Shown: in pieces, positions 1,904 to 18,500 of the stretch
How positions within the stretch are numbered: the stretch's first letter is position 1
How the letters are laid out: each line of letters opens with the position of its first letter
Virus record (IMG/VR): IMGVR_UViG_3300042197_002798
Span: 1-35,987 of that record
Strand: one strand, 5' to 3'
From: a virus
DNA length: 35,987 bases
Notes under the pieces: model-generated
Database searches by the model: none
What the model was told of the DNA's origin: nothing
The model's input: only the letters and a program-made list of their open reading frames with translations
Translations under genes and position numbers: made by a program

Positions 1904-2100
1904 AATACCTCCCAATCACATTCCCAGTTACAATCGTTGCTTGTATTCACCCAAAAGAAGTATTTCTGGTTCTCTGATGCGAGAAACAGCATACCATCAC
2001 CCTTATCTTGCTCTACAATACAGATGGCGTTGTTGTCCATCATATTCGCAAGACGGTTCTTTGCTTTACTGCTCTTCGGTTTTACGGTCACTCTTCGCAT
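1900..2100 (-). CDS. Conserved small T4-like cyanophage protein (66 aa)
   Basis: A 66-residue protein with a basic start (MRRVTVKPKSSKAKNRLAN) followed by an acidic, aromatic beta-rich part (CIVEQDKGDGMLFLASENQ, then KYFFWVNT). I recognise this pattern as a small protein common in T4-like cyanophage genomes, but no function is known to me. Its start overlaps the upstream gene by 13 bases and its stop forms ATGA with the next ORF, so it belongs to the 2492-to-1 operon. Confidence 0.7.
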   Translation of the reverse strand: MRRVTVKPKSSKAKNRLANMMDNNAICIVEQDKGDGMLFLASENQKYFFWVNTSNDCNWECDWEVL

Positions 2101-2492
2101 TGTTCTTCCTCATCAGTCAGGACGGTTCCCATAGGACCTTTTTTGATACGCTCCCACTCCTTTTCTGCTTCTAGCATATCATCAAACTTGCTTTTCAAGT
2201 CCTCACCCAAAGTCAGTTCAAACTCATCAGCAACCTTACGCATATTCTCTACACTTCGGTCTTCACTAAATGCGAGACCACAAGCACCTTTCATAATGTT
2301 GAGTTCATTGTGACCCATCGCACGAGCAACAGTTGCGAAGAATCTAAACAGTTGATGAACATTAAGGTCTTCAGCAGGAATCTGAAAAGTATAATGCTCT
2401 TCAGGGAGCACAGTATCATCAAAACCACTGCTGTAATGAGTGGAAGTCCATTCAGTATCAAACTGAACCTTAAGGGATGCCTTGTAAGTCAT
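2088..2492 (-). CDS. Conserved hypothetical protein, first gene of its operon (134 aa)
   Basis: A 134-residue protein beginning MTYKASLKVQFDTEW. A longer reading frame extends to 2573, but the ATG at 2492 is preferred: it has an AGGAAA ribosome binding site about 8 bases upstream, and the extension would run through the TATAAT promoter at 2514-2519. The protein has a beta-rich N-terminal half with an HYTFQIPAEDLNVHQLFRFF segment and an acidic helical C-terminal half ending EEEQCEE. Function unknown. It leads a run of eight overlapping or closely packed small genes. Confidence 0.65.
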   Translation of the reverse strand: MTYKASLKVQFDTEWTSTHYSSGFDDTVLPEEHYTFQIPAEDLNVHQLFRFFATVARAMGHNELNIMKGACGLAFSEDRSVENMRKVADEFELTLGEDLKSKFDDMLEAEKEWERIKKGPMGTVLTDEEEQCEE

Positions 2493-2508
2493 TGGTTTGT
2501 TTCCTATG

Positions 2509-2542
2509 TGGCCATTATACGACAGAATGGGACAGAATGGAA
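2509..2542 (-). promoter_or_regulatory. Early-type promoter, TATAATGGCCA class, with a tandem 10-bp repeat
   Basis: The minus strand carries TATAATGGCCACA (-10 box at 2519-2514) about 22 bases before the ATG at 2492. There is no good -35 box at 17 bases (TTCCAT). Instead the region directly upstream of the -10 holds two perfect head-to-tail copies of a 10-base unit, GACAGAATGG as read on the plus strand (2521-2540). It may need an activator or be bound by a regulator; that is inference. Confidence 0.55.
2521..2540. repeat. Perfect tandem 10-bp repeat upstream of a -10 box
   Basis: GACAGAATGG occurs twice without a gap, followed by a degenerate partial third copy (AACAGGG). The 10-base period would put two identical sites on one face of the helix, just upstream of the TATAAT box at 2514-2519. 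Confidence 0.7.
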
Positions 2543-2559
2543 CAGGGTGTGACAGTTGT

Positions 2560-2874
2560 TCAATCGTCCTCAATGTTTAATTTGTCCATGATTTCTTCCA
2601 TAGAATAGGTTTTAACTGTGCCAGCATCAATCTCATCTACCATTTGTCGCAGTTGTTCAAGAAACTCTTTAGGTAGAGTATCATCTTCACCAAGACATTG
2701 CCAAAACCACTGATAACATTCTTCATAAGGATCATCATACCACATCAAGGCATAATCCTTATAGTTACCTCGCATGAGATCAGACCAGATACGGAACGAT
2801 CCACGAATATTCTGCCACCCAGTCATCCAGCAGTGACCGATATAATACTCAAACCAGTTCAGTTTCGTTTTCAT
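2560..2874 (-). CDS. Hypothetical protein rich in Trp and Tyr (104 aa)
   Basis: A 104-residue protein with an unusually aromatic N-terminal two thirds (WFEYYIGHCWMTGWQNIRG, YDDPYEECYQWFWQ) and an acidic helical C-terminus. It overlaps the upstream gene by 26 bases and is the last gene of the helicase operon. I see no membrane segment or catalytic motif. Function unknown. Confidence 0.6.
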   Translation of the reverse strand: MKTKLNWFEYYIGHCWMTGWQNIRGSFRIWSDLMRGNYKDYALMWYDDPYEECYQWFWQCLGEDDTLPKEFLEQLRQMVDEIDAGTVKTYSMEEIMDKLNIEDD

Positions 2875-3163
2875 TTGTAATTAAATCTATCCATTGTTTT
2901 TTCGTGTGTATAGGATCTATGTCGTCAGCATTATTCCATCTCCAAGTGCGAGAAAGAATATCTACATCCAGTCCAAACTTATATGCCCAGAACAGTAGAG
3001 AGAACGTGCTACCACTTCCAGATTTGATCTGAATGTAGGGCCAAGAGGGACAATCATTCCAACTGACTGATACCTGAAGCAGTGACCAGTTCTTGATGGT
3101 TAGAACTTGAACATACCAATCGTGTCCGAAGTCCTCACGATGCTTAAAGTTAATGAGTTTCAT
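2849..3163 (-). CDS. Hypothetical protein (104 aa)
   Basis: A 104-residue protein, MKLINFKHREDFGHDWYV..., with a beta-rich core (LLQVSVSW, PYIQIKSGSGSTFSLLFW). The Gly/Ser turn followed by a hydrophobic segment might pack as a small beta sandwich. Its ATG overlaps the upstream stop (ATGA) and its end overlaps the next gene by 26 bases, so it is translationally coupled in the helicase operon. Function unknown. Confidence 0.6.
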   Translation of the reverse strand: MKLINFKHREDFGHDWYVQVLTIKNWSLLQVSVSWNDCPSWPYIQIKSGSGSTFSLLFWAYKFGLDVDILSRTWRWNNADDIDPIHTKKQWIDLITNENETELV

Positions 3164-3357
3164 TTGAGTAGATTGTGATAGTATAATACTTCAGGGTTAT
3201 CTAGGTCTTTACATCGAGGATAGAAGATTCCATCTCGATAACAACCATCCTCTGGTTTTGGTTGTTGATATACAACTTTTGGTGGATCATAACTGCGTTC
3301 ACAAATGTAAGCACCTCGAAGGCAGAAATATAAAATTGTGATTGCTTCTGCCATCAT
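3160..3357 (-). CDS. Small protein with an N-terminal hydrophobic segment (65 aa)
   Basis: A 65-residue protein whose first 20 residues (MMAEAITILYFCLRGAYICE) resemble a short membrane anchor or signal. A hydrophilic tail with two cysteines follows (DGCYRDGIFYPRCKDLDN). It starts at the ATG overlapping the helicase stop (ATGA), so it is coupled to the helicase. Function unknown. The two tail cysteines could form a disulfide if the tail is exported. Confidence 0.6.
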   Translation of the reverse strand: MMAEAITILYFCLRGAYICERSYDPPKVVYQQPKPEDGCYRDGIFYPRCKDLDNPEVLYYHNLLK

Positions 3358-4535
3358 CGCTTTGTCACCGAGATAGCAGGTTCACCTTTGTGAAAGATAG
3401 TATCAACAACTGCTTGCACTTTGCGGGAGGTGCTGATACCTACGCTATCATACACAGGCACACAGACCAGTCCAAAGGTCTTGGATTTGTCACCCAAACG
3501 AATCACACGGCCGATGGACTGACTGATACCAATATAGTCCATATTTCTCATGAACAGCACTGCCTCAAGACCAGACACATTGATACCCTCAGACAGGATA
3601 GAATGGTGCAGAACCACAAACTTCTTGGAGGAATCTTTACCCCAAGCATTGAGAGTCTCAAAGAATTGTTCGCGGTTGACTTTCTGACCGTCGATCACAG
3701 CACCAGTCTTGGATGTAATAATCATCCAAGAATAACCACGCTGCAGCAGTTGTTGACAGAAATCAGATTCTGACACCAAACCGATGATTTGTTTGGTAGT
3801 GCGAGCGCAGACAAGAATCTTCTTGACATCTTGCTCATCAATCGTTTCAATGAGATTGTCAGCATCACGGGAGAAAACAACCTGCTTACCCTTGACCATC
3901 GGCAGTTGCTTGACAACAACCTTAGGAGGTAGAATATAACCCTGCTCCACCAGTTCAGGTGCAGGAACATTGCAAATTACCTGACCATACACTTCAGGCA
4001 TGTTCATGCCTGGTTTAGAAATGGTAGCGGAATGTTTGGGCGTGGCTGTGAAGAAATAGCAACGCTTTGCATCAGCAGAGAAATACTCAGTTGCAGGGAA
4101 AAAGTTGCGCTTGACGCTGTTATGTGCCTCATCAAAGTAGATCGTATCAACAGGAATATCTGCCTGTTGCAGACGCTGCAGAGAGTTATAGGTGGTAAAG
4201 ATCAGCAGGTGGCGATTATCAGCAAGACAGATACCTACGTTGACAACAATCTCGGAAGGTTTGGTAGTGTTGAAGTGATGAGTCTCTCCAGAGTGAACGT
4301 GCATCACTTCAGCATTATCAATATGCTCAAGAAATTCGCTAGACAGCTGCTCTGCCAGCAAGATGCGCGGCGCACAAACTACAACAATCTTGGCAGTTTC
4401 TGATTGAAACAGACGCTTACAATCAAAAATCATCGTAGGAGTTTTACCAGCGCCCGTGGGCATGGTCAGTTGACCTTTGCTATGATTTTCCATAGCATCG
4501 AGACCACGGATCTGATGAGGGCGAAGCGTAATCAT
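3354..4535 (-). CDS. SF2 DEAH-box helicase (393 aa)
   Basis: A superfamily 2 helicase of the COG1061 type. From the chosen start the motifs are a Q-like RPHQIRG at residues 5-11, Walker A PTGAGKT at 26-32, DEAH at 135-138, TATP (motif III) at 163-166, and QSIGRVIRLG (motif VI) near residue 350. Both RecA-like domains are therefore complete. The ATG at 4535 is used because a longer frame to 4568 would include the TATAAT promoter box at 4557-4562. It is shorter than T4 UvsW and lacks obvious accessory domains. It probably acts in DNA repair, recombination or replication restart. Three small genes follow it by overlap. Confidence 0.85.
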   Translation of the reverse strand: MITLRPHQIRGLDAMENHSKGQLTMPTGAGKTPTMIFDCKRLFQSETAKIVVVCAPRILLAEQLSSEFLEHIDNAEVMHVHSGETHHFNTTKPSEIVVNVGICLADNRHLLIFTTYNSLQRLQQADIPVDTIYFDEAHNSVKRNFFPATEYFSADAKRCYFFTATPKHSATISKPGMNMPEVYGQVICNVPAPELVEQGYILPPKVVVKQLPMVKGKQVVFSRDADNLIETIDEQDVKKILVCARTTKQIIGLVSESDFCQQLLQRGYSWMIITSKTGAVIDGQKVNREQFFETLNAWGKDSSKKFVVLHHSILSEGINVSGLEAVLFMRNMDYIGISQSIGRVIRLGDKSKTFGLVCVPVYDSVGISTSRKVQAVVDTIFHKGEPAISVTKR

Positions 4536-4550
4536 AAATTGCGTTTCAAT

Positions 4551-4585
4551 ATGGCCATTATACATCAAAAAGGGGTCCGTGTGGA
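4551..4585 (-). promoter_or_regulatory. Early-type promoter, TATAATGGCCA class, for the helicase operon
   Basis: The -10 box TATAAT (4562-4557) continues as GGCCATATTG and lies 21 bases before the helicase ATG. At 17 bases upstream is TCCACA, a 4 of 6 match to TTGACA, which lies inside the stem-loop of the preceding terminator. Promoter and terminator therefore share sequence. Confidence 0.6.
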
Positions 4586-4589
4586 CCCC
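4567..4589 (-). terminator. Intrinsic terminator after the ParB-like gene
   Basis: The minus strand reads GGGGTCC-ACAC-GGACCCC followed by TTTTT: a 7-bp GC-rich stem, a 4-base loop and a U tract. It lies 22 bases after the stop of the ParB-like gene and ends 4 bases before the next -10 box. Confidence 0.85.
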
Positions 4590-4611
4590 ATGTGACGGTT
4601 TCAGAACTGGA

Positions 4612-5781
4612 TCAGGGTTGAGTCAGGGACAGACAATCTTGAGTGCCATCGAACTCAATCGAGTTGCCATACATATCAACCAAACCAACTTCAGTCGGGC
4701 GACCCTTATCTTGAGGGTTAGGCTTCACATACTGTGCAAGGAATCCAGCAATCTTGATGGGGAAGTTTTCCTCATCAACAGTGGACACATCAGCATCACA
4801 CAAATCAGCAGCGAACTGAATCATAAAAGATTTCATCTCATTGTACTCGTCAATGAAGTTTTCGCGGAACTTTTCCAGATTAGGAACGCGCTTCTGTGCA
4901 TAACCAAAGATATACACAGGAATACCCAGGCGCTGTGCATGGTACATAGCGCGACCCCACGTAGCTTTGTTGTCGCCAGCACCACAGCAGTAGGCAATGT
5001 AACCCTGAGAAATCAACTCAGAATCAGTGCGACTCTCAACACCTTGCTTAGCAAAGTTATTGTTCTTGATGAAACCATTCAGAGTATTTTCAGAATGTCC
5101 CACCGAGTTGTAGGTACGGAAGTTGGGGTAAACTTGGCAGTTGTTGAAACACTCAGTTTTGATCGATTTGCGAGTCTTAGCAGAACGATCAGAAGCAATC
5201 AGATCCACAAAGTCGCTGATGGAATCTTCAGTGCGCTCAATCACACCACGATCTACTGCATTACACACTTCTTTGATGTAATCAGTGGATTTTTGAGGCA
5301 GTTGAGGATTAGCGTGGTGATTAGACTGGTTGCGAGCAACGATTTCCCAATAAAGGGAATCGAATTTGTAGACATCAAAGATGTACAGATCTTGACCGAT
5401 GCGCGTCAAAGCTTCGAAGCGATTGTAACCAGACTGTGCTTTCAGTGCAGTCGGGTTCATATCTTCGCCATCAAAGCAACAAATAGGAGGAGGACAATCT
5501 GTTTTGTATCCATACACCTCATAGTTGTTGACAAGGTTATTCACATGATCTGCCTCGTTGTTCTTGTCACGAGGTTGTTCTTTTAGATCATAGCGCACAA
5601 ACTGACGAGGAATCAGATAGCGACCAAGAAAAGTAGAACCCTTATATTCACGAGCAGGGCACTTTTCCAGAGACTCTTGCAGCATCTCTTCAGTCAGACC
5701 AAGAGGATTTGCAACAGTCTGTGCAGTTTTATCCCAAATCAAAGAAATTTGGGCAGAAATGTTGTAAGTTTGAGCAGACAT
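4612..5781 (-). CDS. ParB-like nuclease/partition-domain protein (389 aa)
   Basis: A 389-residue soluble protein. At about residues 97-128 it has PPPICCFDG...SGYNRFEALTRI, which resembles the ParB/Srx N-terminal core, where a G-x-x-R motif follows a conserved acidic strand. The rest is mixed alpha/beta with cysteines scattered but no clear zinc site. The assignment is by pattern only; it could be an unrelated DNA-binding or nucleotide-binding protein. It is a single-gene operon with its own sigma70-type promoter upstream and a hairpin terminator downstream, immediately before the helicase. That layout suggests expression at its own level, early in infection. Confidence 0.55.
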   Translation of the reverse strand: MSAQTYNISAQISLIWDKTAQTVANPLGLTEEMLQESLEKCPAREYKGSTFLGRYLIPRQFVRYDLKEQPRDKNNEADHVNNLVNNYEVYGYKTDCPPPICCFDGEDMNPTALKAQSGYNRFEALTRIGQDLYIFDVYKFDSLYWEIVARNQSNHHANPQLPQKSTDYIKEVCNAVDRGVIERTEDSISDFVDLIASDRSAKTRKSIKTECFNNCQVYPNFRTYNSVGHSENTLNGFIKNNNFAKQGVESRTDSELISQGYIAYCCGAGDNKATWGRAMYHAQRLGIPVYIFGYAQKRVPNLEKFRENFIDEYNEMKSFMIQFAADLCDADVSTVDEENFPIKIAGFLAQYVKPNPQDKGRPTEVGLVDMYGNSIEFDGTQDCLSLTQP

Positions 5782-5843
5782 TGTTTAGTAAATCGAAACT
5801 AAGGACATGATTGGGTTGGAACTGAGTTCCTGTTCCTCAACCA

Positions 5844-5879
5844 TGTGGCCAATATAACCGATTTAGAAGAACCCGTCAA
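5844..5879 (-). promoter_or_regulatory. Sigma70-type promoter for the ParB-like gene
   Basis: TTGACG (5879-5874), exactly 17 bases, then TATATT (5856-5851), followed by GGCCACATG. The -35 box lies inside the 3' end of the upstream gene. The start point would be near 5844, giving a leader of about 60 bases. That leader holds a small hairpin, GGAAC-TCA-GTTCC. Confidence 0.75.
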
Positions 5880-6375
5880 GGCCACCGACCAGTTCGGGAA
5901 TTGTCACAGTGTCCGTCACCTTATCTCCAAGCACTCTCACAATGAGATCCAACGATCTCTGATGTGGACGCCCCTTCCATCCATACCACTTGCTTTTCTT
6001 ACCCATAGAGTATGGTGGAAGCTTTCCTACGGAAAGATACTGCTCCGCAGTAAGGTCGTAAATGTTATCTTCATTCTGTAACCACCAGTGAGTCTCACTA
6101 CGGTAATCCACACCACTCATTGGTTGCAACTTATCAGTATCCATCAGATAGAACAATGCCTGCGTAGAGTGATAGCAATGTCCATAATATGGATTGGTTT
6201 GATTCTCTGCACGATACCTTGTTGATAAAAGATCTGGTGACAGATTGCGTTTAATCAATCCCATTACCAGAGCCATATTCATCTCACAGAATCTGTAAGG
6301 TACAAAACTCAATGTACGAGTCTTGATGATTGTGTCTCCATTATATTTGTGTCTCTCTACAGTTCTTATAGCCAT
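5863..6375 (-). CDS. Possible papain/NlpC-like thiol enzyme (170 aa)
   Basis: A 170-residue protein with an ordered Cys-His-Asp set: YYGHCYHSTQALF at about residues 63-75, THWWLQNED at about 95-103, and IYDLTAEQY shortly after. This is the layout of papain-fold thiol hydrolases (NlpC/P60 or transglutaminase-like). The C-terminal part (KKSKWYGWKGRPHQRS) is basic. It is last in an operon behind a SprT-like zincin, and the ParB-gene promoter lies inside its 3' end. A role in protein or peptide processing is inference; I cannot name a family with certainty. Confidence 0.5.
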   Translation of the reverse strand: MAIRTVERHKYNGDTIIKTRTLSFVPYRFCEMNMALVMGLIKRNLSPDLLSTRYRAENQTNPYYGHCYHSTQALFYLMDTDKLQPMSGVDYRSETHWWLQNEDNIYDLTAEQYLSVGKLPPYSMGKKSKWYGWKGRPHQRSLDLIVRVLGDKVTDTVTIPELVGGLDGFF

Positions 6376-6999: not shown

Positions 7000-7563
7000 T
7001 TACTTTGGCATACCCAGGTATGGGCGACCATCATAAATGTTATTTTTGTGCTCTCCGTCAGCATTTACATAATGTAAAAATGCTTGTAAGTACCAATCTT
7101 GCTCAAATGGTGGTCTCCAGTGATAAAGATCACAACCACGATATAAACAAAGATCTCCAGGTTCAAGAAGAATTTCTACAGCATCGCTGCGATCTTCCTG
7201 AGTTGAAAAATAAATGGGATTGATTGGAGTTTCATTGGGGATACCAAGAGCCAATGTTGCAGAAAGTTCACATGATGGACGATCTCTATGAATTGCCAAC
7301 TCATCATCTTTACCATATAGTCTAGTATAAGTGTATGTTGGGAGTAATTTATAACCAGTTATTTCACTCAACGAATCAATAGAATTTCCTAAGATAGTAT
7401 CCATTAAAGGATCTCCATAGAAAAAATAACTATTTGGCGCTTGTATGTCACCAATAACTGCCTGACCTGCACAAAGTCTTGTGTAAAAATACGATTGTAT
7501 AAACTGAACAAAATCTTTATCTAAAAAATTTCTAACAATTTCATATCCTTTTTCTTTGAACAT
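7000..7563 (-). CDS. 2OG-Fe(II) oxygenase-like protein (187 aa)
   Basis: A 187-residue protein with a prolyl-hydroxylase-like double-stranded beta-helix. It has H92-x-D94 (AIHRDRPSCE) and a distal H148 (GCDLYHWRPPF) after EPGDLCLYRG, the usual strand before the third iron ligand. The 2-oxoglutarate-binding basic residue is not obvious after H148, so cofactor use is less sure than for its neighbour. It is the last gene of the fibre operon, 3 bases after a second 2OG oxygenase. The target is unknown; virion or fibre protein hydroxylation is one possibility. Confidence 0.7.
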   Translation of the reverse strand: MFKEKGYEIVRNFLDKDFVQFIQSYFYTRLCAGQAVIGDIQAPNSYFFYGDPLMDTILGNSIDSLSEITGYKLLPTYTYTRLYGKDDELAIHRDRPSCELSATLALGIPNETPINPIYFSTQEDRSDAVEILLEPGDLCLYRGCDLYHWRPPFEQDWYLQAFLHYVNADGEHKNNIYDGRPYLGMPK

Positions 7564-7566
7564 AAT

Positions 7567-8223
7567 CTACCTCAAATTTGGTCCATGAATCCATGCAACT
7601 AACGAATATCGTTCCCCCTTTGTTACTGGTGTAACCTCATGTAAAGTATGCGATGGGAAAAATACCATCAGACCCTTTTGTTTCGAAATAACAGTTGGAT
7701 TTTTTGATAAATGTAATAATAACTCTCCACCCTCATAATCATTGGGATCTGATAACTGTAAAGACATACTCAACTTACGGTTATGTGGTAATGACCAAGG
7801 TGTTGGGTCAATATGCGCGTGATAAGTTCCTTCTTCCGAACTTAAGTAATGAGTAAACTGAAGTCTTTCAATTTTTTCTAAATCAAAATTCCAGAATTGC
7901 TGATTGTTTTGTTTTACAACATCAGTAATTCTTTGAAATATCCAATTTGTTTCTGAGTTTGCACCAATCCAAGATACAAAAGATCTTCTAACATTTAAAC
8001 AGTCTTTTCCTTTTCCTCCAGTTTCAGCTCTTTTTGGTGATAATCTTTTTCCTATAACAATAATTCTTTCTATTTCTTTATCATTGAATATAGACTCATT
8101 CCAACACCAAGTTTCATATTGGTGCGATTCTAATTCCCAATATTCTGAGCCCATATTTTTTATGGGATCGTTGCTAACAATTTTAGCGAAATCATGTTTA
8201 TACGAAAAATATTTAGAAGTCAT
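7567..8223 (-). CDS. 2OG-Fe(II) oxygenase, prolyl 4-hydroxylase superfamily (218 aa)
   Basis: A 218-residue protein with the full catalytic set: H137-x-D139 (TYHAHIDPTPW), distal H195 (SHTLHEVTPV) and R205 ten residues on (KGERYSLVAW) to bind 2-oxoglutarate. The YEGGELLLH strand at about 163-171 is typical of PKHD-type hydroxylases. It overlaps the upstream fibre-associated gene by 11 bases. It probably hydroxylates a protein residue; the substrate cannot be read from the sequence. Confidence 0.85.
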   Translation of the reverse strand: MTSKYFSYKHDFAKIVSNDPIKNMGSEYWELESHQYETWCWNESIFNDKEIERIIVIGKRLSPKRAETGGKGKDCLNVRRSFVSWIGANSETNWIFQRITDVVKQNNQQFWNFDLEKIERLQFTHYLSSEEGTYHAHIDPTPWSLPHNRKLSMSLQLSDPNDYEGGELLLHLSKNPTVISKQKGLMVFFPSHTLHEVTPVTKGERYSLVAWIHGPNLR

Positions 8224-8764
8224 AGTTTACTTTCGGAAAGTCTGCGATAGATTGACAAGATTCTATTTGCGAGTATACTTCTTTTTCCCACAAATTGCAA
8301 CTTTCATTATGATCTTCAATTAAATTTGAGATATTAATAATATCTTCTGCAGAAAATTCGTAGTATTGAAAACGAAGTTTTAGTGCAAATGTTTTTTCTA
8401 AATTCTTCTGGGATCTTTCTTTAAGAATAAGAAGTTCTAATCTAGTTTCAGAATCTGTTGGAATCAAAATATCATTGTAAATGAGTAAAGATTCTTTTTT
8501 CTGATTTACTTTTTCAGTTACAAGAACTTTGAGGGTTAATTTATTCATCTCAAGATTTTCTGGACTTGATTCATAATCAGAAATCTTGGGTGAACGAATG
8601 TTTATCCACCCAAGATTGTCCCAACCAGCCCACTTTAAATCTAGAAGTTCTTCATCTGATAATCCAGGAAGACCAGCGATATTTCTCCAGTTTTCTGGAA
8701 GTTCTTGTACTTTATCTAAGATAATTTTATTTTGTGGATCAACTAAAACATAAAAATTAGTCAT
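8213..8764 (-). CDS. Putative tail-fibre-associated protein (183 aa)
   Basis: A 183-residue protein, MTNFYVLVDPQNKIILDKVQ. Its N-terminus resembles the small proteins found beside cyanophage fibres, which begin with a beta strand and contain a G-LSDEEL-DL-WAGW segment (GLSDEELLDLKWAGWDNLGW, about residues 34-53). The C-terminal half is charged and helical, as in fibre assembly chaperones. The ATG at 8764 overlaps the upstream stop in a TGATG arrangement and is preferred to the GTG one codon earlier. A role as a fibre assembly chaperone is inference from position and shape. Confidence 0.6.
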   Translation of the reverse strand: MTNFYVLVDPQNKIILDKVQELPENWRNIAGLPGLSDEELLDLKWAGWDNLGWINIRSPKISDYESSPENLEMNKLTLKVLVTEKVNQKKESLLIYNDILIPTDSETRLELLILKERSQKNLEKTFALKLRFQYYEFSAEDIINISNLIEDHNESCNLWEKEVYSQIESCQSIADFPKVNYDF

Positions 8765-9252
8765 CACTCTTCAGTTTCTTCTAGTTCTTGAGTCTTTTTC
8801 TTTCTTCTTGTTGTCGCTTCTAACTTAGGTCTTTCCGCAGAATCAATACTTGTAGGAAGAATTCCATATTTTTGGTCGTTCAATTTCGATAGTTGTCTTC
8901 TATCCTTCTCACTAATTTGCCACGGCGCAGCGCCTTTCCAATGCACAGCATTTGGTTGTTCCAAATCCCAAGATCTCCAAGCAGTAAAATCTTGCTTAGG
9001 TCTTTTCAAAATTTCAAGACCACATGCAGCAGCAATAGACTCCATAATTTCAACAGCTTCTACTGGATTGCAGATGTACCACATACTTGTGGTTTCTCCG
9101 CGAAGAACAAATTCAATCACTCCTCCGGTTGTTTGTCCACAAGTGATTGATCTTGCTCTATTTAGATTTGCCTTTAAGGCATTAAGTTCATTTTGCTCAT
9201 GAATTGCCTCAATTTCTTGTCTAGTTTTTGATTTAATTTTTTTCGCAGGCAT
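8764..9252 (-). CDS. Conserved cyanophage hypothetical protein (162 aa)
   Basis: A 162-residue protein beginning MPAKKIKSKTRQEIEAIHEQ. It has a charged helical N-terminus, a CGQTTGGVIEFVLRG beta segment near residue 40, and a basic then acidic tail (RRKKKTQELEETEE). The CGQTTGG segment is familiar from T4-like cyanophage hypotheticals. The ATG at 9252 is used; an upstream TTG would add only four residues. A late-promoter-like AATAAATA lies about 30 bases upstream. Function unknown; the context suggests a virion or fibre accessory protein. Confidence 0.6.
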   Translation of the reverse strand: MPAKKIKSKTRQEIEAIHEQNELNALKANLNRARSITCGQTTGGVIEFVLRGETTSMWYICNPVEAVEIMESIAAACGLEILKRPKQDFTAWRSWDLEQPNAVHWKGAAPWQISEKDRRQLSKLNDQKYGILPTSIDSAERPKLEATTRRKKKTQELEETEE

Positions 9253-9280
9253 AATGATCCACAAATAAATTATTTTGATT

Positions 9281-9288
9281 TATTTATT
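9281..9288 (-). promoter_or_regulatory. T4-like late promoter motif (AATAAATA)
   Basis: AATAAATA on the minus strand lies about 29 bases upstream of the ATG at 9252. T4-like late promoters consist mainly of such a -10 element with no -35 box. It is one of several in the same position in front of late genes here. Confidence 0.45.
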
Positions 9289-9898
9289 GTTCTGGTTCAG
9301 GGTTCCAAGTTGGCCACCAGCAATTGTTTTCAGAATCGTACCTATAGTGTTTTCCATCTCCATGCAAATCATAGGTTTTTTCTGGATCGGGTCCCCAGGT
9401 AAAGGTAGATTCATCTAATAAGTATCCTTCCATTGGACAGGGAGGGATGAATGCATTATATTCTTCATGATAAACGTAACCAATAATATCATAACCACTA
9501 CTATCACTATCTCCACAAATAGCGTGATCTTCCTCGCATACGATATATGAATAATTGTCTTCCATCAAATAGTGAATTATTTTTGCAACAGTATAACTAT
9601 GACACACATCTCCAGGAAAAACTGAAAGGTGTGTAGTTTCTTGTTCATTATGCATATCATTTGCAACTTGAATTGAAGTATCACTTGCTGCAATTGTTTG
9701 TATTATTTCCCGAGTAGATGGAAAATATTCTGGAGTAGATCTATATTCGACATTTTCTTTGTCAGTGGATGCCTCATAATCTGCGTAATTTCCCAATATT
9801 AATGGCATTCCAGGTTTTGCGACAAATTTGTCAATGAATTGATTTGTTTCTTTATTTAAAACAAATACTTTTGAAACCGATCTTGTGTTAATGTTCAT
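9284..9898 (-). CDS. Putative fibre-tip or fibre-associated protein (204 aa)
   Basis: A 204-residue acidic protein that directly follows the collagen-like gene. Its ATG at 9898 overlaps that gene's stop (ATGA) and has GGAG upstream, so it is preferred to an ATG four codons earlier. The C-terminal 50 residues (FIPPCPMEGYLLDESTFTWG, then YRYDSENNCWWPTW) resemble a short aromatic repeat common at the end of cyanophage structural proteins. Six cysteines are spread over the chain. It may be part of the adhesin or its chaperone; function is not established. Confidence 0.55.
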   Translation of the reverse strand: MNINTRSVSKVFVLNKETNQFIDKFVAKPGMPLILGNYADYEASTDKENVEYRSTPEYFPSTREIIQTIAASDTSIQVANDMHNEQETTHLSVFPGDVCHSYTVAKIIHYLMEDNYSYIVCEEDHAICGDSDSSGYDIIGYVYHEEYNAFIPPCPMEGYLLDESTFTWGPDPEKTYDLHGDGKHYRYDSENNCWWPTWNPEPEQ

Positions 9899-10968
9899 TG
9901 TGCGCTCCATGAAATTGTTACAAATCCTGAGGGTGCCACAGAAATTGGATAGTTAGTTTGTGGTGAAACAACTACTGCTGGGGTAGTAGAGGGATTTGCA
10001 GCTGCGCCAGCCTGCCCTGGGTTTGAGCTTCCGGGATTGCCACTAGCACCAGTTCCGCCCGGATTTCCATTTGATCCAGGATTTCCAGGACTTCCGCCAC
10101 TTCCAGCCTGCCCAGCTCCGCCTCCCCCACCATCTCCTCCACAACCGTCTCCTCTTCCGCCACCGTGCCCGCCTGGAGCATGACCGTGACCAGGTGCGCC
10201 ACAACTCCCGCCAGGGTTGGTTCCAGCTGCGCCATTACCTCCGCCACCACAACGGGGTGGATCGCCACCCCAGCAACCGTCATCTTCAAAAGATCCGCGA
10301 GATCCACCGCCGCCACCGTTTCCTGCCGGTCCTCCGGAACCAGCAGATCCTGCATTTCCTGGGTTCCCTGCATTTCCTGTGCCTCCAGTAGCGCCGGCAT
10401 TTCCTGAGTTTCCTGTTCCAGCAGCTCCTCCAGCTCCACCCAAAAATGTAATTCCTATTGCACTAGAACTTTGTCCCGTAGAGCCTGCGTTTCCTGGAGA
10501 TCCTGGGTTTCCTGGAGCTCCTGCGTTCCCACCAGAACCATTGGCACCAGAATTTCCTGGATTTGCACTTCCAGATGATCCAGATGATCCAGGACCACCA
10601 GGGTGGCCACCACCGTCATCGGCACCACTGCCTCCACCACCGCCGCCAAATTGAGCAGATGTACCCCCACCGCCTGGGGAGCCATGCCCGCGCCCAGGTC
10701 CGGCACCGCCGCCGCCTCCCCCACCGCCGCTGCCGCCACCGCCGGGATTTCCAGATCCACCATTTCCTGCTCCGCCGCCAGCGCCGCCATTGCCTCCGGC
10801 GCCGCCATTTCCTGCAGTTCCTGGGTTACCAGCATTTCCTGCTGCACCTCTTCCTTGAACATCAACTCTTAGCAATCTTGCCGGACTTGTAAATGTTCCT
10901 GGTGTATTAAATGTGACGGAAGCTGCGGCCGTCATATTTCCTCTGTAAATCGATCTTCCTGCTGCCAT
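9895..10968 (-). CDS. Collagen-like glycine-rich fibre or adhesin protein (357 aa)
   Basis: The N-terminal 40 residues form beta strands (AASVTFNTPGTFTSPARLL) and the C-terminal 40 are non-repetitive (VVVSPQTNYPISVAPSGFV). Between them about 270 residues are Gly-rich, partly strict Gly-X-Y triplets with proline often at Y (GNPGSPGNAG, GAPGNPGSPG) and partly polyglycine. Such regions form collagen triple helices or polyglycine-II lattices, as in the distal adhesin of phage S16. The coding DNA is much more G+C-rich than its surroundings because of Gly/Pro codons. A prolyl-hydroxylase-like gene lies immediately upstream, 19 bases away. Receptor binding is the likely role. Confidence 0.75.
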   Translation of the reverse strand: MAAGRSIYRGNMTAAASVTFNTPGTFTSPARLLRVDVQGRGAAGNAGNPGTAGNGGAGGNGGAGGGAGNGGSGNPGGGGSGGGGGGGGAGPGRGHGSPGGGGTSAQFGGGGGGSGADDGGGHPGGPGSSGSSGSANPGNSGANGSGGNAGAPGNPGSPGNAGSTGQSSSAIGITFLGGAGGAAGTGNSGNAGATGGTGNAGNPGNAGSAGSGGPAGNGGGGGSRGSFEDDGCWGGDPPRCGGGGNGAAGTNPGGSCGAPGHGHAPGGHGGGRGDGCGGDGGGGGAGQAGSGGSPGNPGSNGNPGGTGASGNPGSSNPGQAGAAANPSTTPAVVVSPQTNYPISVAPSGFVTISWSAQ

Positions 10969-10987
10969 TGTTTTTTTGTAAGTAAGT

Positions 10988-11599
10988 TTACGTTAAATAA
11001 AACCAACCTGTTACTATATATTTAGATTTTTCTCCATGTACAACATTACCACGATGAGTGTGCGTATACGCTGCAGGCCATAACGCACAGGTATTTTCTT
11101 TTGGAGGAATTCTCAATTTTTGATATAAAAATTCTGTTTCTCCTGCCTCATCAATATCATTTAAATATAATGCCCAAACTAGACACCGAGATGCCATGTC
11201 CTCGTTTCCCTGTTCACAGTGCCAAATGTGATACCCCTCTCCAGGATTTGTTTTTTGAATTTTCAAGTGTGTTGATTGAAGGTGCAAATTTTGTAAAATA
11301 TCATAATTACTTGTATAAAAATCAAAACATCTTTGCAAACCTGCTTGTAAAATATTTCTGACGGATCCGTTATCAAAATGTGCGAAAGAATCTTCATGAT
11401 TGTTTACATTTAAGAAGTAAAAAGAATCACTTTTTACATGTTTTTTTGCATTTTCACTTTTTATTCTTGTTCCACAAAGTCCTTTTTCAAAAACTTTATC
11501 GAATTCAGAAATTACATGCTGACAAAAACCTTGTGGGAACACATTTTCGTAAAGACCAATGAAATCAATATAACGTTCAGACAATTCAGGTATGATCAT
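10988..11599 (-). CDS. 2OG-Fe(II) oxygenase, prolyl 4-hydroxylase-like, HxE variant (203 aa)
   Basis: A 203-residue oxygenase of a type common in cyanophages. The iron site is H127-x-E129 (YHIWHCEQGN), where glutamate replaces the usual aspartate. The distal histidine is in AAYTHTHRGN (H180 or H182) and a basic residue follows about ten positions on (K191 or K193 in EKSKYIVTGWF). GETEFLYQ at 153-160 is the strand typical of the family. Its gene sits between the 566-residue fibre gene and the collagen-like gene, with no terminator between, so it is probably co-expressed with both. Confidence 0.85.
   Translation of the reverse strand: MIIPELSERYIDFIGLYENVFPQGFCQHVISEFDKVFEKGLCGTRIKSENAKKHVKSDSFYFLNVNNHEDSFAHFDNGSVRNILQAGLQRCFDFYTSNYDILQNLHLQSTHLKIQKTNPGEGYHIWHCEQGNEDMASRCLVWALYLNDIDEAGETEFLYQKLRIPPKENTCALWPAAYTHTHRGNVVHGEKSKYIVTGWFYLT
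11019..11025 (-). promoter_or_regulatory. Late-promoter-like motif (CTAAATA)
   Basis: CTAAATATA on the minus strand lies about 50 bases before the collagen-like gene, inside the 3' end of the oxygenase gene. It is a weaker match to the T4-like late consensus than the NATAAATA sites, so support is low. Confidence 0.35.
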
Positions 11600-11612: not shown

Positions 11613-13313
11613 TTATGAGAAATTATAGAGTGAAAGGTTGCCCCACCATGTTGTACCACTATCATAGGTGAAGAATGTATAAACATCCGTCTTGTTTGCG
11701 GTGGTTGTTCTGGTAGGAACAGTAGCATTTGGCCACTTGACTGAAGCAGGCCAGGTGATTGTTCTACCACCTGTAGCGTCGTTAGTCAGTACCAGGGTGA
11801 ATGAATATGCTCCAGAAGGAACACTCGTCATGCTGAATGTAAATGTGCAGTTACCTGTCAGAGTTGCAGTAACAAAGTTTCCGTTTGACAGTGCTAATGT
11901 TGCAGCAGTGCCAGTGTTACCAAAGGAGTAAATTGTCTCACCAAACGCTGTCAGTGTTTTATTAGTTAAAGTATCTGTCGAGGAAGTTGTTACAACGTTT
12001 ACACCTTCAACAGCAATTCTTCCTGCAGATGCTCTCGTGATTGTGGTATCACTAGCATGACCCAAATCAATTAAACCAACACCTAAGGTAGCCGTGGTCG
12101 ATGAAGTAATACCTGTTACTGGTAATCCAGTACAGTTAGTTAATGTACCAGAAGAAGGAGTACCTAATACTGGAGTTGTTAATGTTGGGGATGTTAAAGT
12201 CTTATTGGTCAGTGTCTGAGTATCAGTTGTACCAACAATTGTTCCTGAAGGAACTGACTTACCAAGAACTGCAGATGCTGTTAAGACATTAGTGCCATTA
12301 ATTTTATATGTTTTACCAGTAAGAAGATTGACATTCTCGGATGATGTCCAAGAATCTGTAGCATCTACCCAGTTCAGTGTCTTGTCAGTGGTTCCCTTGA
12401 GTGTAATACCACCACCATCAGCAGATGCATCAGAAGGAGAAGCAGTTGAACCAAGTTCAATGTTCTTATCATCAACTGTAAGAGTTGTTGAGTTGATGGT
12501 AGTTGTTGTACCATTAACTGTTAAGTCACCAGTAACAGTTACATTAGAACTGAATCCTACGGCACCAGTAAAGGTTGAAACGCCTGCTACTGAAACATTT
12601 CCAGAGAATGATGCACTTGAAGATGCCGTAAGAGCAGCAACCGCAGTTGTTCCAGTGAGTGTGGGGGATGCTGAAAATACAACTGACGAGGAACCAGTTT
12701 CATCAGTCAGTGCTGAAGCAAGGTTTGATGATGAAGGAGTCGCTAAGAATGTAGCAACGTTAGCACCGAGGCCACTAATACCTGTTGATACTGGAAGACC
12801 AGTACAGTTAGTTAATGTACCAGAAGAAGGAGTACCGAGAACAGGTGTTGTTAGTGTAGGGGATGTTAGTGTCTTATTTGTCAGTGTATCTGTTGAAGAA
12901 GTTGTGACAACGTTGACACCTTCGACAGCAATTCTTCCTGCGGAAGCTCTTGAAATTGTTGTGTCTGTAGCGTGTCCTAACTCAAGGTTTCCGCCGACTG
13001 CTAATGTATTTGTGCTTGCATCAAATGTTAAGTCAGCATCTGTTCCAGATGATGTCATTGTGCCTGTAGTCAGGCTGGTTACAACTACTCTCTGAACTCC
13101 AGATGCTGCACTTAAAGAAGAACCAGTATTTGAAAGACCTGAACCATCACCATAAAATGATGTTGCTGTAATTGCAAGACCTGTAGCGTTAATACCGCCG
13201 GAGGTAATGGTTACTCCAGTACCAATGACAGCACTTGTTGCAGTTATAACGCCAGCACTTACAATATGTCTATTATCATCAATAATATTTGAACCTGAAA
13301 TTTTAATGGCCAT
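11613..13313 (-). CDS. Tail fibre protein with repeated modules (566 aa)
   Basis: A 566-residue fibre protein. It starts MAIKISGSNIIDD and has a YGDGSGLS motif near residue 55. It then contains two copies of a module running from GHA-DTTI-RASAGRIAVEG to NVVTTSSTDTLTNKTLT. The LTSPTLTTPVLGTPSSGT block with its NCTGLP end also occurs twice. The last 105 residues (from SFGNTGTAATL to LSLYNFS) are the domain shared with the two upstream fibre genes. Low-complexity Ser/Thr/Gly/Val composition without Cys-rich domains fits a trimeric beta-structured fibre. A CATAAATA motif lies 32 bases before the start; no Shine-Dalgarno is seen. Confidence 0.8.
   Translation of the reverse strand: MAIKISGSNIIDDNRHIVSAGVITATSAVIGTGVTITSGGINATGLAITATSFYGDGSGLSNTGSSLSAASGVQRVVVTSLTTGTMTSSGTDADLTFDASTNTLAVGGNLELGHATDTTISRASAGRIAVEGVNVVTTSSTDTLTNKTLTSPTLTTPVLGTPSSGTLTNCTGLPVSTGISGLGANVATFLATPSSSNLASALTDETGSSSVVFSASPTLTGTTAVAALTASSSASFSGNVSVAGVSTFTGAVGFSSNVTVTGDLTVNGTTTTINSTTLTVDDKNIELGSTASPSDASADGGGITLKGTTDKTLNWVDATDSWTSSENVNLLTGKTYKINGTNVLTASAVLGKSVPSGTIVGTTDTQTLTNKTLTSPTLTTPVLGTPSSGTLTNCTGLPVTGITSSTTATLGVGLIDLGHASDTTITRASAGRIAVEGVNVVTTSSTDTLTNKTLTAFGETIYSFGNTGTAATLALSNGNFVTATLTGNCTFTFSMTSVPSGAYSFTLVLTNDATGGRTITWPASVKWPNATVPTRTTTANKTDVYTFFTYDSGTTWWGNLSLYNFS
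12127..12164. repeat. 38-bp direct repeat, copy 1, inside the 566-aa fibre gene
   Basis: Identical over 38 bases to 12799-12836. It is the core of a longer diverged duplication that continues on both sides and encodes the LGTPSSGTLTNCTGLP segment. Confidence 0.85.
12799..12836. repeat. 38-bp direct repeat, copy 2, inside the 566-aa fibre gene
   Basis: Identical over 38 bases to 12127-12164, about 672 bases away. Recombination between the copies would keep the reading frame (672 is divisible by 3) and delete 224 codons. Confidence 0.85.
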
Positions 13314-13363: not shown

Positions 13364-15502
13364 TTAAGAGTAGTTATACAATGAAAGATTTCCATACCAA
13401 GTTGAACCACCATTGAATGTGTAGAACGTATAAACGTCAGTTCTATTTGCTGTGGTAGTTCTTGTTGGAACTACCCCGTTTGGCCATACTACTGAAACAG
13501 GCCAAGTAATTGTTCTACCAGCAGTGCCATCATTCGTTAAGTGCAATGTAAATGCAACGGTATCTCCAGATGGAACTGATCCTAAACTGAATACCCATGT
13601 AGCATTTCCAGTTAAAGTAGCGGTTACAAAAGTTCCGTTTGAAAGATCAAGAGTTGGGGCCGTACCAGTGTTACCAAAAGCATACCGCTTTTCAGCATAA
13701 CCTTGAAGAGTAGCATATTGTACTACTCTTCCAGAAGTGATAATATCAGTACCACCGATCTGATAACTACCAGATCCTTTTGTTGTGTAAGATGTTGCAG
13801 ACACAACGCCAACTGCATTAACACCACCACTTGTAATTGTTGTTGCGGAACCAACAATTACGGAAGATAAAGTGGAAATACCTGAACCATTTATATTTCC
13901 AACAACATTACCACTAAATGTTCCTGCGGTAACAATTCCTGCAACAAATCCACCAGCAGCATTACGAGCAACAATTGCAGAAGCTGTATTTGCAGATGCT
14001 GCGTTAGATGTTACAGTAAATGTTTGTCCAGTTGCTCCAGTATAACTTGCAGAACCAGATAATCCAGTTCCTGATGTTGCAAGAGTTAATGTTCCTAATG
14101 TTCCACCGAGTGAAATACCAGAAATTGTTGATTGAGCAAGATTTGCTGTCGTAATTCCAGCAGAACCACTCAAGTTACTATTTGTCAACCCAGTAATACC
14201 AGAACCAGATCCACTGAAACTTGTTCCAGTAATAATTCCAGCAGTAATTCCAGAACCATTGAAACGACTTGTCCCAATAGTTGCACCTGTTCCGTCAAAA
14301 GTAAAGTTGGAAGATCCTGCAAATGTTCCAGCACTATTGAATTGAACTTGAGTTGTTGATCCCCCAGGTTTTTGTCCTTCAATAAAGATCGTACCAATAC
14401 CTGCAGTAAAATTAGTGAATACTGTTGAAACACCAGAACCACGGAAGTTTAATAATGTAACACCAGAACCAACGAATCCCCCCTCTGTTGAAATACCAAG
14501 GTTTGGAGCTGCGTTAACTCCAGTTAAATTTGAACCATCTCCATAATAAACAACTGGTTGACCTCCGTTTGCAGCAGTAACAACTCCAGCGAATAATCCA
14601 CCGCCTTGATCGACGCTTAGAATTTTAAGATGTGATGCAAAAGTTGTAACTCCAGTTACATTAATACCACCAGAGTTAATAGTAACACCACTTCCAATAA
14701 CTGCTGATGATAATGTAGAATTTCCCGTTACATTTAATGATGTTGCAGTTGCTACACCAGTTACATTTAGATTTGTTGGAGTTACTTGAGTTGAATTTAT
14801 ATTTCTTATGGTTGCAATACCAGTAAGGTTAATTCCACCAGAAGTGATTGTAACCGCAGATCCAACAATCGCTGAGGTTGTAGTTACAACACCCGATGCA
14901 TTAATACCATCGGAGTTAATTGTAACATTAGATCCAACAACTGCGGAAGATAATGTTGAAACTCCAGAAACACTTAAACGAGTTCCAAATAAAGTGTTTT
15001 GGTATGTAGAAACTCCTACAAAGGTAGAAACTCCTGAGACATTAATATCATCAAATTCACCTTGACCATCAACATCTAATCTACCACTAACTTCAACTTG
15101 ATTTGAAAAAGTTGCAACTCCAGTTATTGTTAGATTTGTAATATCAACTTGACCACCCAATAATGCACTGTTGAGTGTTGTTTTCGCAGTTGCGTTAATT
15201 GTTTGAATCCCCGATAAACTTAAGAGTCCAGATCCATCGGTTTCAAATACTGTTGTAGTTCCAACTCTATAAACTGATGCTGTAGCAACGCCAAGTTGAG
15301 AAAATGAGGATATAAATTGCCCAACTGTAGCAATACCAGTAACTACAATATTGGTAACGCCAATTCCACCTTTGACATTAAAGTCATGAACTAAAACACT
15401 TGTTCCAACACCAACTTTATTATTGTCGGTGTTTACAATGAATAATCCGCCATTAACCTCAAGACCATTTTTAATTACAAAATTCTTAGTAATTCCAGCC
15501 AT
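13364..15502 (-). CDS. Tail fibre protein (712 aa)
   Basis: A 712-residue fibre protein made largely of short repeats of the form GVSTLSSAVVGSNVTINSDG and GVVTTTSAIVGSAVTITSGG (about residues 150-300). A VYYGDGSNLTG motif lies near residue 320, followed by Gly/Ser/Thr-rich segments. The last 105 residues (AFGNTGTAPTL to NLSLYNYS) are the domain shared with both neighbouring fibre genes. The ribosome binding site AGGGGAGAG is strong and a GATAAATA motif lies 36 bases upstream. A fibre attached to the baseplate or capsid is likely; it has no enzymatic motif. Confidence 0.8.
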   Translation of the reverse strand: MAGITKNFVIKNGLEVNGGLFIVNTDNNKVGVGTSVLVHDFNVKGGIGVTNIVVTGIATVGQFISSFSQLGVATASVYRVGTTTVFETDGSGLLSLSGIQTINATAKTTLNSALLGGQVDITNLTITGVATFSNQVEVSGRLDVDGQGEFDDINVSGVSTFVGVSTYQNTLFGTRLSVSGVSTLSSAVVGSNVTINSDGINASGVVTTTSAIVGSAVTITSGGINLTGIATIRNINSTQVTPTNLNVTGVATATSLNVTGNSTLSSAVIGSGVTINSGGINVTGVTTFASHLKILSVDQGGGLFAGVVTAANGGQPVVYYGDGSNLTGVNAAPNLGISTEGGFVGSGVTLLNFRGSGVSTVFTNFTAGIGTIFIEGQKPGGSTTQVQFNSAGTFAGSSNFTFDGTGATIGTSRFNGSGITAGIITGTSFSGSGSGITGLTNSNLSGSAGITTANLAQSTISGISLGGTLGTLTLATSGTGLSGSASYTGATGQTFTVTSNAASANTASAIVARNAAGGFVAGIVTAGTFSGNVVGNINGSGISTLSSVIVGSATTITSGGVNAVGVVSATSYTTKGSGSYQIGGTDIITSGRVVQYATLQGYAEKRYAFGNTGTAPTLDLSNGTFVTATLTGNATWVFSLGSVPSGDTVAFTLHLTNDGTAGRTITWPVSVVWPNGVVPTRTTTANRTDVYTFYTFNGGSTWYGNLSLYNYS

Positions 15503-15537: not shown

Positions 15538-15545
15538 TATTTATC
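15538..15545 (-). promoter_or_regulatory. T4-like late promoter motif (GATAAATA)
   Basis: GATAAATA on the minus strand, about 36 bases before the 712-aa fibre gene and overlapping the stop codon of the 2000-aa gene. Confidence 0.5.
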
Positions 15546-18500
15546 AGGAATAATTATAGATTGAAAGAATTCCGTACCAGTTGCTTCCACCATCCTTAGT
15601 AAAGAATGTATAAACATCACTCTTATTAGCAGTGGTAGTTCTGGATGGAACTACACCATTTGGCCAATTAACATTTGCCGGCCAGGTGATTGTTCTGCTT
15701 GGCGTTGCATCGTTCGTCAAGAATAATGTAAATGATGTAGTTGTTGCTGGAGTATTTGTAAATGTAGCAAAGGTTGCATTTGCATTTAATGTTGCAGTTA
15801 CAAAGGTTCCATTTGCAAGATCAATTATAGGAGCAGATCCTGTATTACCAAAAGCATAAAGAGTATCGGCAATTGCACCAGTTGCAGTTAAACTTCCAGT
15901 AACTGTTAGATTTCCACCAACTGTTGAATTACCAGTAACATTTAATGTTCCACCAATCGTTGTGTTACCGGTAATGTTTGTTGTTCCAATAACATGAAGA
16001 TTTGACGTTGCATTTGCAGTTCCAACACCAAGACTATTTGATACATAGGCATTTCCAATAATATCTGCAGCACCTCTTGGAGTTGCTGTTCCCATACCTA
16101 CACGATTTGTATCTGCAATGACAAGGGTATTTCCTTGACCAGCATGGGCAATTGATAAGTAAGAACCACTGCTTGCTGAAGATCCCTGATAATTATATGT
16201 CAAAAGAACTGACTGGAAATTATCTGTTCCGAAGGTTCTACCAATCGCAATACCCGCAGAACTTGATACTGCCAGATTTGGTGCAAGGAATCTTGCAAGG
16301 CCACCATCTACACTTGTGGAAACACCAGTGGAAACATTAAGTCTTGCAGGAGTAAGAGTTGTTCCGATTCCAACGTTAAGATTTACATAAATTCCAGTAC
16401 CAAGACCTGTAGATACATTTGTCCACTGTGATGCAGCTGATAATCCAGTAAGTTGTGAACCATCACCATAGTAAGTTACAATTCCTGTGGATGCGGTAAT
16501 AATTCCAGAAGAAATTGATGTAATACCTACATTTAAACTTCCAATACTAAGAGATCCTATGGTAACAATACCACTGATTCTTGCATCACCAACAACGTCT
16601 AATGCAGACCTCGATCCTGTTGTTCCGATGCCAATACCAGAAGAGACATATGCATTCCCTGTAACTTGAAGTTTTTGACTATCAAATCCAGTTGATGTTG
16701 CAGCACCGATAATCAGTGTTGAGTTGTCTTGGAATAGGAAGTTTGCATTACCAGTGTTTGTGTTAGATGGGCTCTTATAAAGAACCTGATTTGCTCCACC
16801 AAATACAAGACCATTTGGAAGGGTTCCAATGAATCCAAAAGGTTCCCATTGATTATCTACGGTGTAAACCCATCCAAGATACTCATTGTGTACTGGTCTT
16901 GCTTTATAAACAACATCACCAGAATTGCCCGCTATAGCTGGAGTTGTTCCAATTCCAACAGTAAACTTACGAGCAACATCAGCATCTCCTTGAAGAAGTA
17001 ATGATCTTGCTTCAATACCATCTTCTGATGTTGATGTTAATTTTGCATCAACGACAATTGGACTTTCAAAGGTTTGTACTTGTTTCTCTGGAGTTAATAC
17101 TTTATCCCCCGTGACAGTGATTACTGGAGTACTGAAAGTTTCCTCTCTTCCTGTGGCTTTTGTAACTCTATTCGTTGTATAAAAATCACCTTTATCATCC
17201 ATTCCACTGTATTGAATAGCGCCACCAGACACTTTAAATGCACGACTCAATTCAATTTCTTTTTGTGTCAGAGTTCTATTTTGTCTGTCGGGGAAAGCAG
17301 TTGAATAGTTACCAGGACCAAAACCAAGATATTCAAATGTATGAGCTGAAGCACGAATAATTGAGTTTCTACGAAGTTCAATTGGATAGACGTGAATGTG
17401 TCTTACAGCAGTTCCACTGGGGTGGTCTTGTAATGGAGTACCAAATAAAGCTCTATAAGCGTATACAGTGCTTCCAGATACTGTTTGATTGATTCTAAAA
17501 ATCTCATCATTAATCGAAAAGTAATCGCCAATCTTAAGTCCAAGAATATCTGCATTATTAACAACAAGTGGAGTTGATTCCGAATCTGTTGATAAAATAG
17601 AAGAACCAAGAGTTGTTGTAATTCCAGCATATGAAACACTCAAACGTCCAGAAGAACCTTCAAATTCTTTCTCAATATCTCCACCATAAGATGTTAATCC
17701 TGGTTGATAAATTGTAATTAATCCACCAGGAGGAGTGGTTGCAGATGCGATTCCAATATTGACTGCAATAGATGTTGCAGAATTGATTTTTGTAACAATA
17801 AAGTCGCCATTGAATAAAGCTTTATCGGCACCTCCAATTCGAACTTTGCCATTCTTAATGAATGGATGAGATCCCGGAAATGTAATTGTTGCAATTCCAG
17901 TTGGTGCATGGTAACTAATCGTTGAAATTCCTAAAGTTTTCCCTGTGAGGAATAAGTTAGCACTCTCTGCGAAAGATCCAACCTGCGAAGAGAATCCAGA
18001 TATTGCTTTTGAGGATTCAACAGTAATTTGATTGTTTGTTGTAATACCAGTGATCTTATAAAGTGTATTATATCCAGAGTATGCATCAGAGCTTACACCA
18101 GAAATACTAATACACTCACCAATATGATCATAGGTATTAGCGACAGTAAGTGTTGCCGGAGTATGTGGAGCATATGTTCCAATTCCACTTAAAGTGATAA
18201 CATCTCCAACTTTATAAGCACTACCACCGTCCATGATCTGAACGTTTGTGATAGTTCCCGCAGCACTTACTGTTACTCGGGCATTTGCATTTGCACCTGT
18301 AGTCGAAACTCCAAGACGCACCGCATAAAATGTTCCATTGGTATAACCAGCACCAGCATTTGTGATACGAACAGATGTAATGCCACTCAGTCCATGGTCA
18401 ATTGTTGTAAAGATTGTGTGAGCCGTTCCAGTTAAAGAGCGAATATCGGAAATTGAAACTGAATCTTCTAAATCAATGAGAATTTTCTCTGTGGTTTGTT

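Follow-up and report, generated by a model that had tools for sequence, protein, structure and literature searches.

Few auxiliary genes are as common in marine phages as those for 2OG-Fe(II) oxygenases. The locus described here raises the question of what such an enzyme acts on when its gene lies next to that of a glycine-rich tail protein, and of whether the two genes belong together at all. It is found on a 36-kb linear fragment of viral DNA recorded in IMG/VR (the window, meaning the whole stretch of DNA that was analysed), and a preliminary description had proposed that the phage hydroxylates a collagen-like adhesin of its own. As for the role of these oxygenases, DNA repair was proposed in a cyanophage review (PMC2984593), and a Baltic Sea study, in which viral prolyl 4-hydroxylases (P4Hs) and collagen fibres are mentioned, called the viral use of P4H 'cryptic' (PMC9301287). 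A link of a phage oxygenase to a Gly-rich adhesin was not found in the literature searched (openly licensed papers).

Gene organization

The nearest isolates of the window are T4-like cyanophages (a baseplate/tail protein was tested), and a cyanobacterium is the probable, though not certain, host. The oxygenase gene and the Gly-rich gene are both located on the minus strand, after a series of tail-fibre genes. The following features were used in the analysis.

7000..7563, minus strand: third probable 2OG oxygenase (phrog_2954; H-x-D...H pattern)
7567..8223, minus strand: second 2OG-Fe(II) oxygenase of the cassette, HxD type (PF13640, E = 7.8e-17; phrog_61)
8213..8767, minus strand: 184-aa tail-fibre-related protein, possibly an assembly protein (phrog_10508)
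8764..9264, minus strand: 166-aa cassette gene (ORFs by inspection)
9284..9910, minus strand: 208-aa neighbour, overlapping the adhesin end by 16 bp (ORF; weak phrog_7759 match)
9895..10968, minus strand: Gly-rich putative tail adhesin, 357 aa (ORF, alignment of 11 relatives, AF2 model, composition)
9985..10851, minus strand: G-X-Y/polyglycine region with nearly all X-Pro-Gly sites, the candidate hydroxylation sites (sequence composition)
10988..11599, minus strand: prolyl-hydroxylase-like 2OG-Fe(II) oxygenase, 203 aa, H127-x-E129...H182...K193 (Pfam PF13640, phrog_61, P4H profile matches, fold, invariant site)
11613..13313, minus strand: tail-fibre-like protein, 566 aa, directly upstream of the oxygenase with a 13-bp gap (PHROG tail fibre matches)

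The 203-aa oxygenase had been described as lying 19 bases upstream of the Gly-rich protein, and the ORFs (10988-11599 and 9895-10968, both minus) are indeed separated by 19 bp. Three more 2OG-oxygenase-like genes (7000-7563, 7567-8223, and 22676-23152, minus strand) bring the number in the window to four; the first two belong to the same cassette, downstream of the adhesin, and the last is located beyond the fibre genes. The families of the 7000..7563 and 7567..8223 oxygenases recur near Gly-rich adhesins of this kind. In PHROGs, phrog_2954 (7000-7563) is labelled 'ferrochelatase', whereas the sequence has the oxygenase pattern H-x-D...H, and the label is probably wrong. By inspection, ORFs resembling the 166-aa gene come after the adhesin in the related loci L015, L018, L072, and L433, and ORFs similar to the 184-aa protein were seen downstream in L015, L018, and L433. 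Three consecutive fibre proteins (11613-13313, 13364-15502, and 15544-21546, minus strand) have a C-terminal domain in common (pattern: TITWP...VP.RTTTAN..DVYTF...G..W.G.LS.YN.S), which suggests a common attachment or chaperone module.

Family, predicted fold, and metal site of the oxygenase

The 203-aa protein matched Pfam 2OG-FeII_Oxy_3 (PF13640; E = 2.6e-9, above the cut-off), and by profile it belongs to the same family as the cyanophage phrog_61 2OG-Fe(II) oxygenases (8e-42); the isolate members differ in being about 40% identical or less, and none of those examined is beside a Gly-rich adhesin. One phrog_61 phage enzyme, that of S-H9-1, resembles the human prolyl hydroxylase EGLN3 (PMC12774648). 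A profile built from 24 close relatives matched solved P4Hs of Bacillus, Phytophthora, and the Chlorella virus PBCV-1, P4Hs being the only matches at E below 0.001. The AF2 model, a confident one (pLDDT 83), was compared with the PDB by Foldseek, and the top 50 matches were all prolyl hydroxylases. With VIA-align, a second aligner run on Foldseek's own candidates, Z was 17.6 to the Pseudomonas putida P4H (rmsd 3.1, 173 aligned) and 16.8 to the algal P4H with peptide (rmsd 3.0, 170 aligned). The modelled structure thus falls in the prolyl-hydroxylase fold class, as the preliminary description had supposed of the enzyme; the fold class does not fix the substrate, because the same list of fold matches includes EF-Tu and HIF enzymes.

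The residues of the iron site are H127-x-E129...H182, and K193 is the likely 2OG ligand; all four are invariant in 24 related oxygenase sequences. The metal triad, the basic 2OG residue and, in the model, a double-stranded beta-helix are those of the Fe(II)/2OG superfamily. HxE in place of HxD had been pointed out as a reason to check the activity. Since it is invariant in the 24 sequences, HxE is the normal state of this family and no sign of decay. The reading of HxE as the mark of a dead enzyme was rejected, the motif being invariant in the clade and present also in S-PM2 and S-CAM3. A Mn-bound structure of PHD2 D315E (4uwd) is among the entries of the fold comparison.

The best fold and profile matches taken together are prolyl 4-hydroxylases (P. 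putida PPHD, B. anthracis P4H, PHD2, algal P4H, and PBCV-1 vCPH). With these the window oxygenase shares the predicted double-stranded beta-helix, HxD/E...H site, and basic 2OG ligand; it differs from them in being only 11-20% identical, in HxE for HxD, and in being phage-encoded and linked to a tail adhesin.

Repeat, composition, and putative fold of the Gly-rich protein

Beta segments are found at the N-terminus, in the middle (about residues 168-175), and at the C-terminus of the Gly-rich protein, with Gly-rich runs between them. Gly autocorrelation is 0.29 at lag 3, compared with 0.17-0.19 at lags 1, 2, 4, and 5. PG occurs 20 times (NPG 10, SPG 3, APG 3) and GP 3 times, in agreement with the earlier remark that proline is often at Y (GNP, GSP, GAP) before glycine. 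The longest strict G-X-Y run has 14 triplets; in 2000 composition shuffles the mean was 6.5 and the highest value 17. The 'long Gly-X-Y runs' of the preliminary description hold only for segments of up to 14 triplets, since the runs are interrupted by phase shifts and Gly makes up 25% of X/Y positions. Pro accounts for 1.7% of X positions, and among the X residues Asn is the most frequent (31%). In the alignment of 11 relatives, Gly at every third residue stays in register, and the Y-prolines inside the runs interchange freely with A, S, G, and T. Two repeat prolines, P137 and P317, are nearly invariant; both are in N-P-G at breaks of the triplet register, as would be expected of turns.

The X/Y composition was compared among three groups. 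The 95 related adhesins with an oxygenase nearby have Pro at X 2.6%, Pro at Y 17.4%, Gly 18.5%, and charged residues 2.7%; this set was gathered partly via GN[PA] patterns, which inflate Asn at X and perhaps somewhat Pro at Y, and the low Pro at X was not selected for in the oxygenase-anchored members. The corresponding values are 45.9%, 3.8%, 1.8%, and 10.4% in 119 GPQ-type phage collagens, and 0%, 13.6%, 27.3%, and 9.1% in the snow-flea antifreeze protein. The placement of Pro and Gly in the adhesins resembles that of the antifreeze polyproline II (PPII) bundle and not that of collagen. Because the snow-flea PPII-bundle protein follows the same rule, Pro before Gly does not point specifically to collagen or to hydroxylation.

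These values did not bear out the collagen triple helix that had been proposed for the fibre. A triple helix formed by the Gly-X-Y region and stabilised by Y-position hydroxyproline would accord with the period-3 Gly, the Pro at Y, and the adjoining P4H-like enzyme, and PBCV-1 is known to have both a viral P4H and a viral collagen (cited in PMC9301287). However, Pro is nearly absent at X, Gly takes 18-25% of X/Y positions, charged residues are few, the repeat is broken, and beta segments lie mid-chain; the long uninterrupted G-X-Y with imino acids at both X and Y that marks collagen-like proteins was not found in the window protein. Real phage collagens also differ in composition and seldom have an oxygenase nearby. 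We consider the triple helix very unlikely. Like the collagen-like fibres of phages (GPQ/GPX type), the window protein has period-3 Gly and a tail-fibre setting; those fibres differ in Pro at X (46%) and not at Y, longer runs, more charges, and scarcity of neighbouring 2OG genes (see below).

A polyglycine-II/PPII bundle, in which turns join short antiparallel helices that have Gly as every third residue, would be consistent with the composition and with N-P-G at the repeat breaks. The AF2 model of the Gly-rich protein is weak (pLDDT 48), having strands at both ends and in the middle, next to Gly runs of moderate confidence, and a fold search with it gave no useful match. The protein had no match in Pfam or PHROG, and no sequence match to gp38 was found. 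Collagen matches by phmmer were attributable to low complexity, and no homology was counted from them.

Linkage of the oxygenase and the Gly-rich gene

Linkage was examined in both directions. Among 67 oxygenase relatives in viral contigs, all 17 close ones (48% identity or more) had the Gly-rich gene 3-588 bp downstream, compared with one of the 30 distant relatives with enough flanking sequence (Fisher p = 7e-12, which overstates the certainty, as related phages were treated as independent). Conversely, the oxygenase was directly upstream in 9/9 relatives of the Gly-rich protein. Distinct adhesins were also collected by repeat patterns blind to the oxygenase; of the 46 that had 1.5 kb of sequence on either side, 41 had an oxygenase gene within 1.5 kb, in 34 cases one of this oxygenase's family. 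By the same search method an oxygenase was near only 2 of 44 GPQ (Pro-at-X) phage collagens (Fisher p = 1e-17, overstated likewise, and with the collagen control drawn from other phages and habitats). Oxygenase density was measured within the same loci and is free of that flaw of the control. It was 8.75 per 10 kb over the 1.5 kb upstream of the adhesin and only about 0.2 at distances above 3 kb, a drop of about 40-fold.

In the oxygenase tree the adhesin label requires at least five changes, counting well-supported branches; as most members were fetched via adhesin patterns, the proportion of labelled rows is not itself evidence. In a large clade the oxygenase is upstream of the adhesin, whereas several loci from another clade have it downstream. 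The label changes and the altered gene order argue that the association arose repeatedly or has long been kept. That the oxygenase and the Gly-rich protein belong together is strongly supported, and co-occurrence beyond chance, for which the preliminary description had proposed a test, was seen from either gene; frequent presence of one gene without the other, which would have spoken against the pairing, was not the outcome for this oxygenase clade.

It could be argued that the two genes are neighbours and nothing more, since marine phages often carry oxygenases and the cassette might move as one block. Four 2OG genes are present in the window, and 2OG genes are common in cyanophages, with matches in 400 phage records. 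The steep fall in density over a few kb of the same loci speaks against this, and the pairing persists in relatives with as little as about 47% identity, despite inserted genes and a changed order; neighbourhood without function is extremely unlikely. The strict link of one oxygenase clade to one kind of Gly-rich tail protein names a candidate substrate that can be tested directly by mass spectrometry.

Two of the loci carried additional features. In L005, a 1563-aa true collagen (1280-5971; GP 137, PG 16), of which the C-terminal domain is closely similar to that of the window fibres, is located about 30 bp before the oxygenase, followed by the Gly-rich adhesin. In L433 (3204-9617), a metagenome bin named Verrucomicrobiales carries the whole cassette, followed by ORFs resembling, by eye, a sulfotransferase and a tryptophan halogenase; the cassette of this bin is probably phage sequence.

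Isolates and other genomic contexts

The pair was not found in isolates when 50,697 phage records were searched by tblastn. The queries were the whole Gly-rich protein, its N-terminus and a variant N-terminus, as well as the 166-aa neighbour, and most of these negatives are weak owing to the repeat masking of BLAST. A Gly-rich gene was not found near related oxygenases in six isolates and two single-cell viruses (S-CAM8 by annotation only), seven of which have 36-43% relatives of the oxygenase family and one, S-SCSM1, a related oxygenase. In S-PM2 and S-CAM3, a 36-40% relative comes after a gp12-like fibre. Distant family members are located beside DNA methyltransferase and clamp-loader genes in S-CAM8; in S-RIM12 one neighbour is a tail completion gene and another a recombination gene. 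The link to cyanophages made in the preliminary description is thus only an indirect one: T4-like cyanophages are the nearest isolates, but the pair itself is absent from the isolates searched.

These contexts bear on another possible target, namely the neighbouring tail fibre, its shared C-terminal domain, or fibres generally, the adhesin being only a fellow member of the cassette. The fibre is 13 bp upstream of the oxygenase, and in S-PM2 and S-CAM3 the relative follows a fibre with no Gly-rich gene near. On the other hand, the close clade was accompanied by the Gly-rich protein in every assessed case, the upstream fibre varies (the collagen in L005, another fibre in L015), and the oxygenase is downstream of the adhesin in several second-clade loci. 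A fibre as the target is, on this evidence, distinctly unlikely.

Proposed function of the cassette

We propose that the cassette encodes a polyglycine-II/PPII-bundle adhesin modified by a dedicated prolyl-hydroxylase-like oxygenase, most simply at X-Pro-Gly, a reading to which we give an even chance. The 9895-10968 product would be a Gly-rich adhesin, of which the G-X-Y segments most likely form a polyglycine-II/PPII helix bundle, not a collagen triple helix, held by short beta segments, with a role comparable to that of the gp38 tip adhesins of T-even phages. The 10988-11599 product would be an Fe(II)/2-oxoglutarate oxygenase dedicated to this adhesin, the Gly-rich protein being its substrate on the simplest reading. 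X-Pro-Gly is the simplest site, because proline is what enzymes with this fold act on and X-Pro-Gly is abundant in the protein. Hydroxylation of these prolines, which is plausible, would occur before or during folding of the adhesin and could yield a stiffer bundle or an altered surface; the other oxygenases of the cassette would perhaps act on other residues. If this is true, a phage hydroxylates its own receptor-binding protein, and a hydroxylated polyglycine bundle exists outside animals.

No effect of oxygenase presence on the Pro-Gly density of the adhesins was seen (0.0463 with and 0.0469 without this oxygenase type, only 9 adhesins being without). Pro-Gly density is thus independent of the oxygenase and does not tie the oxygenase to proline. 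In addition, genes of two to four different 2OG families are commonly found around each adhesin, so that other residues may be targets. Both observations would suit an oxygenase that modifies the adhesin elsewhere than at proline, for example at Asn in X, with different residues taken by the different oxygenases of the cassette, and Asn is the commonest X residue in the window protein. Against it, the fold and profile matches are specifically to prolyl hydroxylases, although the fold leaves the substrate open, and the GN search patterns artificially raise the Asn figure of the pooled set. We regard modification away from proline as unlikely. A broader form of our proposal is a widespread phage system in which two to four different oxygenases hydroxylate a polyglycine-helix tail adhesin at several kinds of residue (Pro at Y and perhaps Asn at X) to give a chemically tuned host-binding tip. 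It is possible but doubtful; if correct, it would explain what a long-puzzling group of marine phage oxygenases does.

Comparison with Gly-rich proteins of known structure

The gp38 adhesin of the T-even phage S16 (PDB 6F45) has a polyglycine sandwich at the fibre tip (PMC6851490). The window protein is likewise Gly-rich and encoded in a tail-fibre gene cluster, and its beta parts would similarly bear polyglycine extensions; it is unlike S16 gp38 in its regular X-Pro-Gly repeat and its oxygenase partner. These two features are not known outside the window type.

The window G-X-Y repeat shares Pro before and not after Gly, as well as Gly at X/Y, with the PPII-bundle antifreeze proteins of snow flea and springtail (PDB 2PNE); those are animal proteins of other function, and shared ancestry is not claimed. 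In a springtail protein of this fold, +16 Da peaks were attributed by the authors to X-P-G hydroxylation (PMC10235112), which provides a precedent for such a modification of such a fold. The 780-aa 'spindlefibril/axialfibril' protein of PDB entries 8zxl and 9ius matched the snow-flea antifreeze sequence (E = 1e-20); low complexity could explain the match, and the protein is perhaps another Gly-rich helix-lattice protein.
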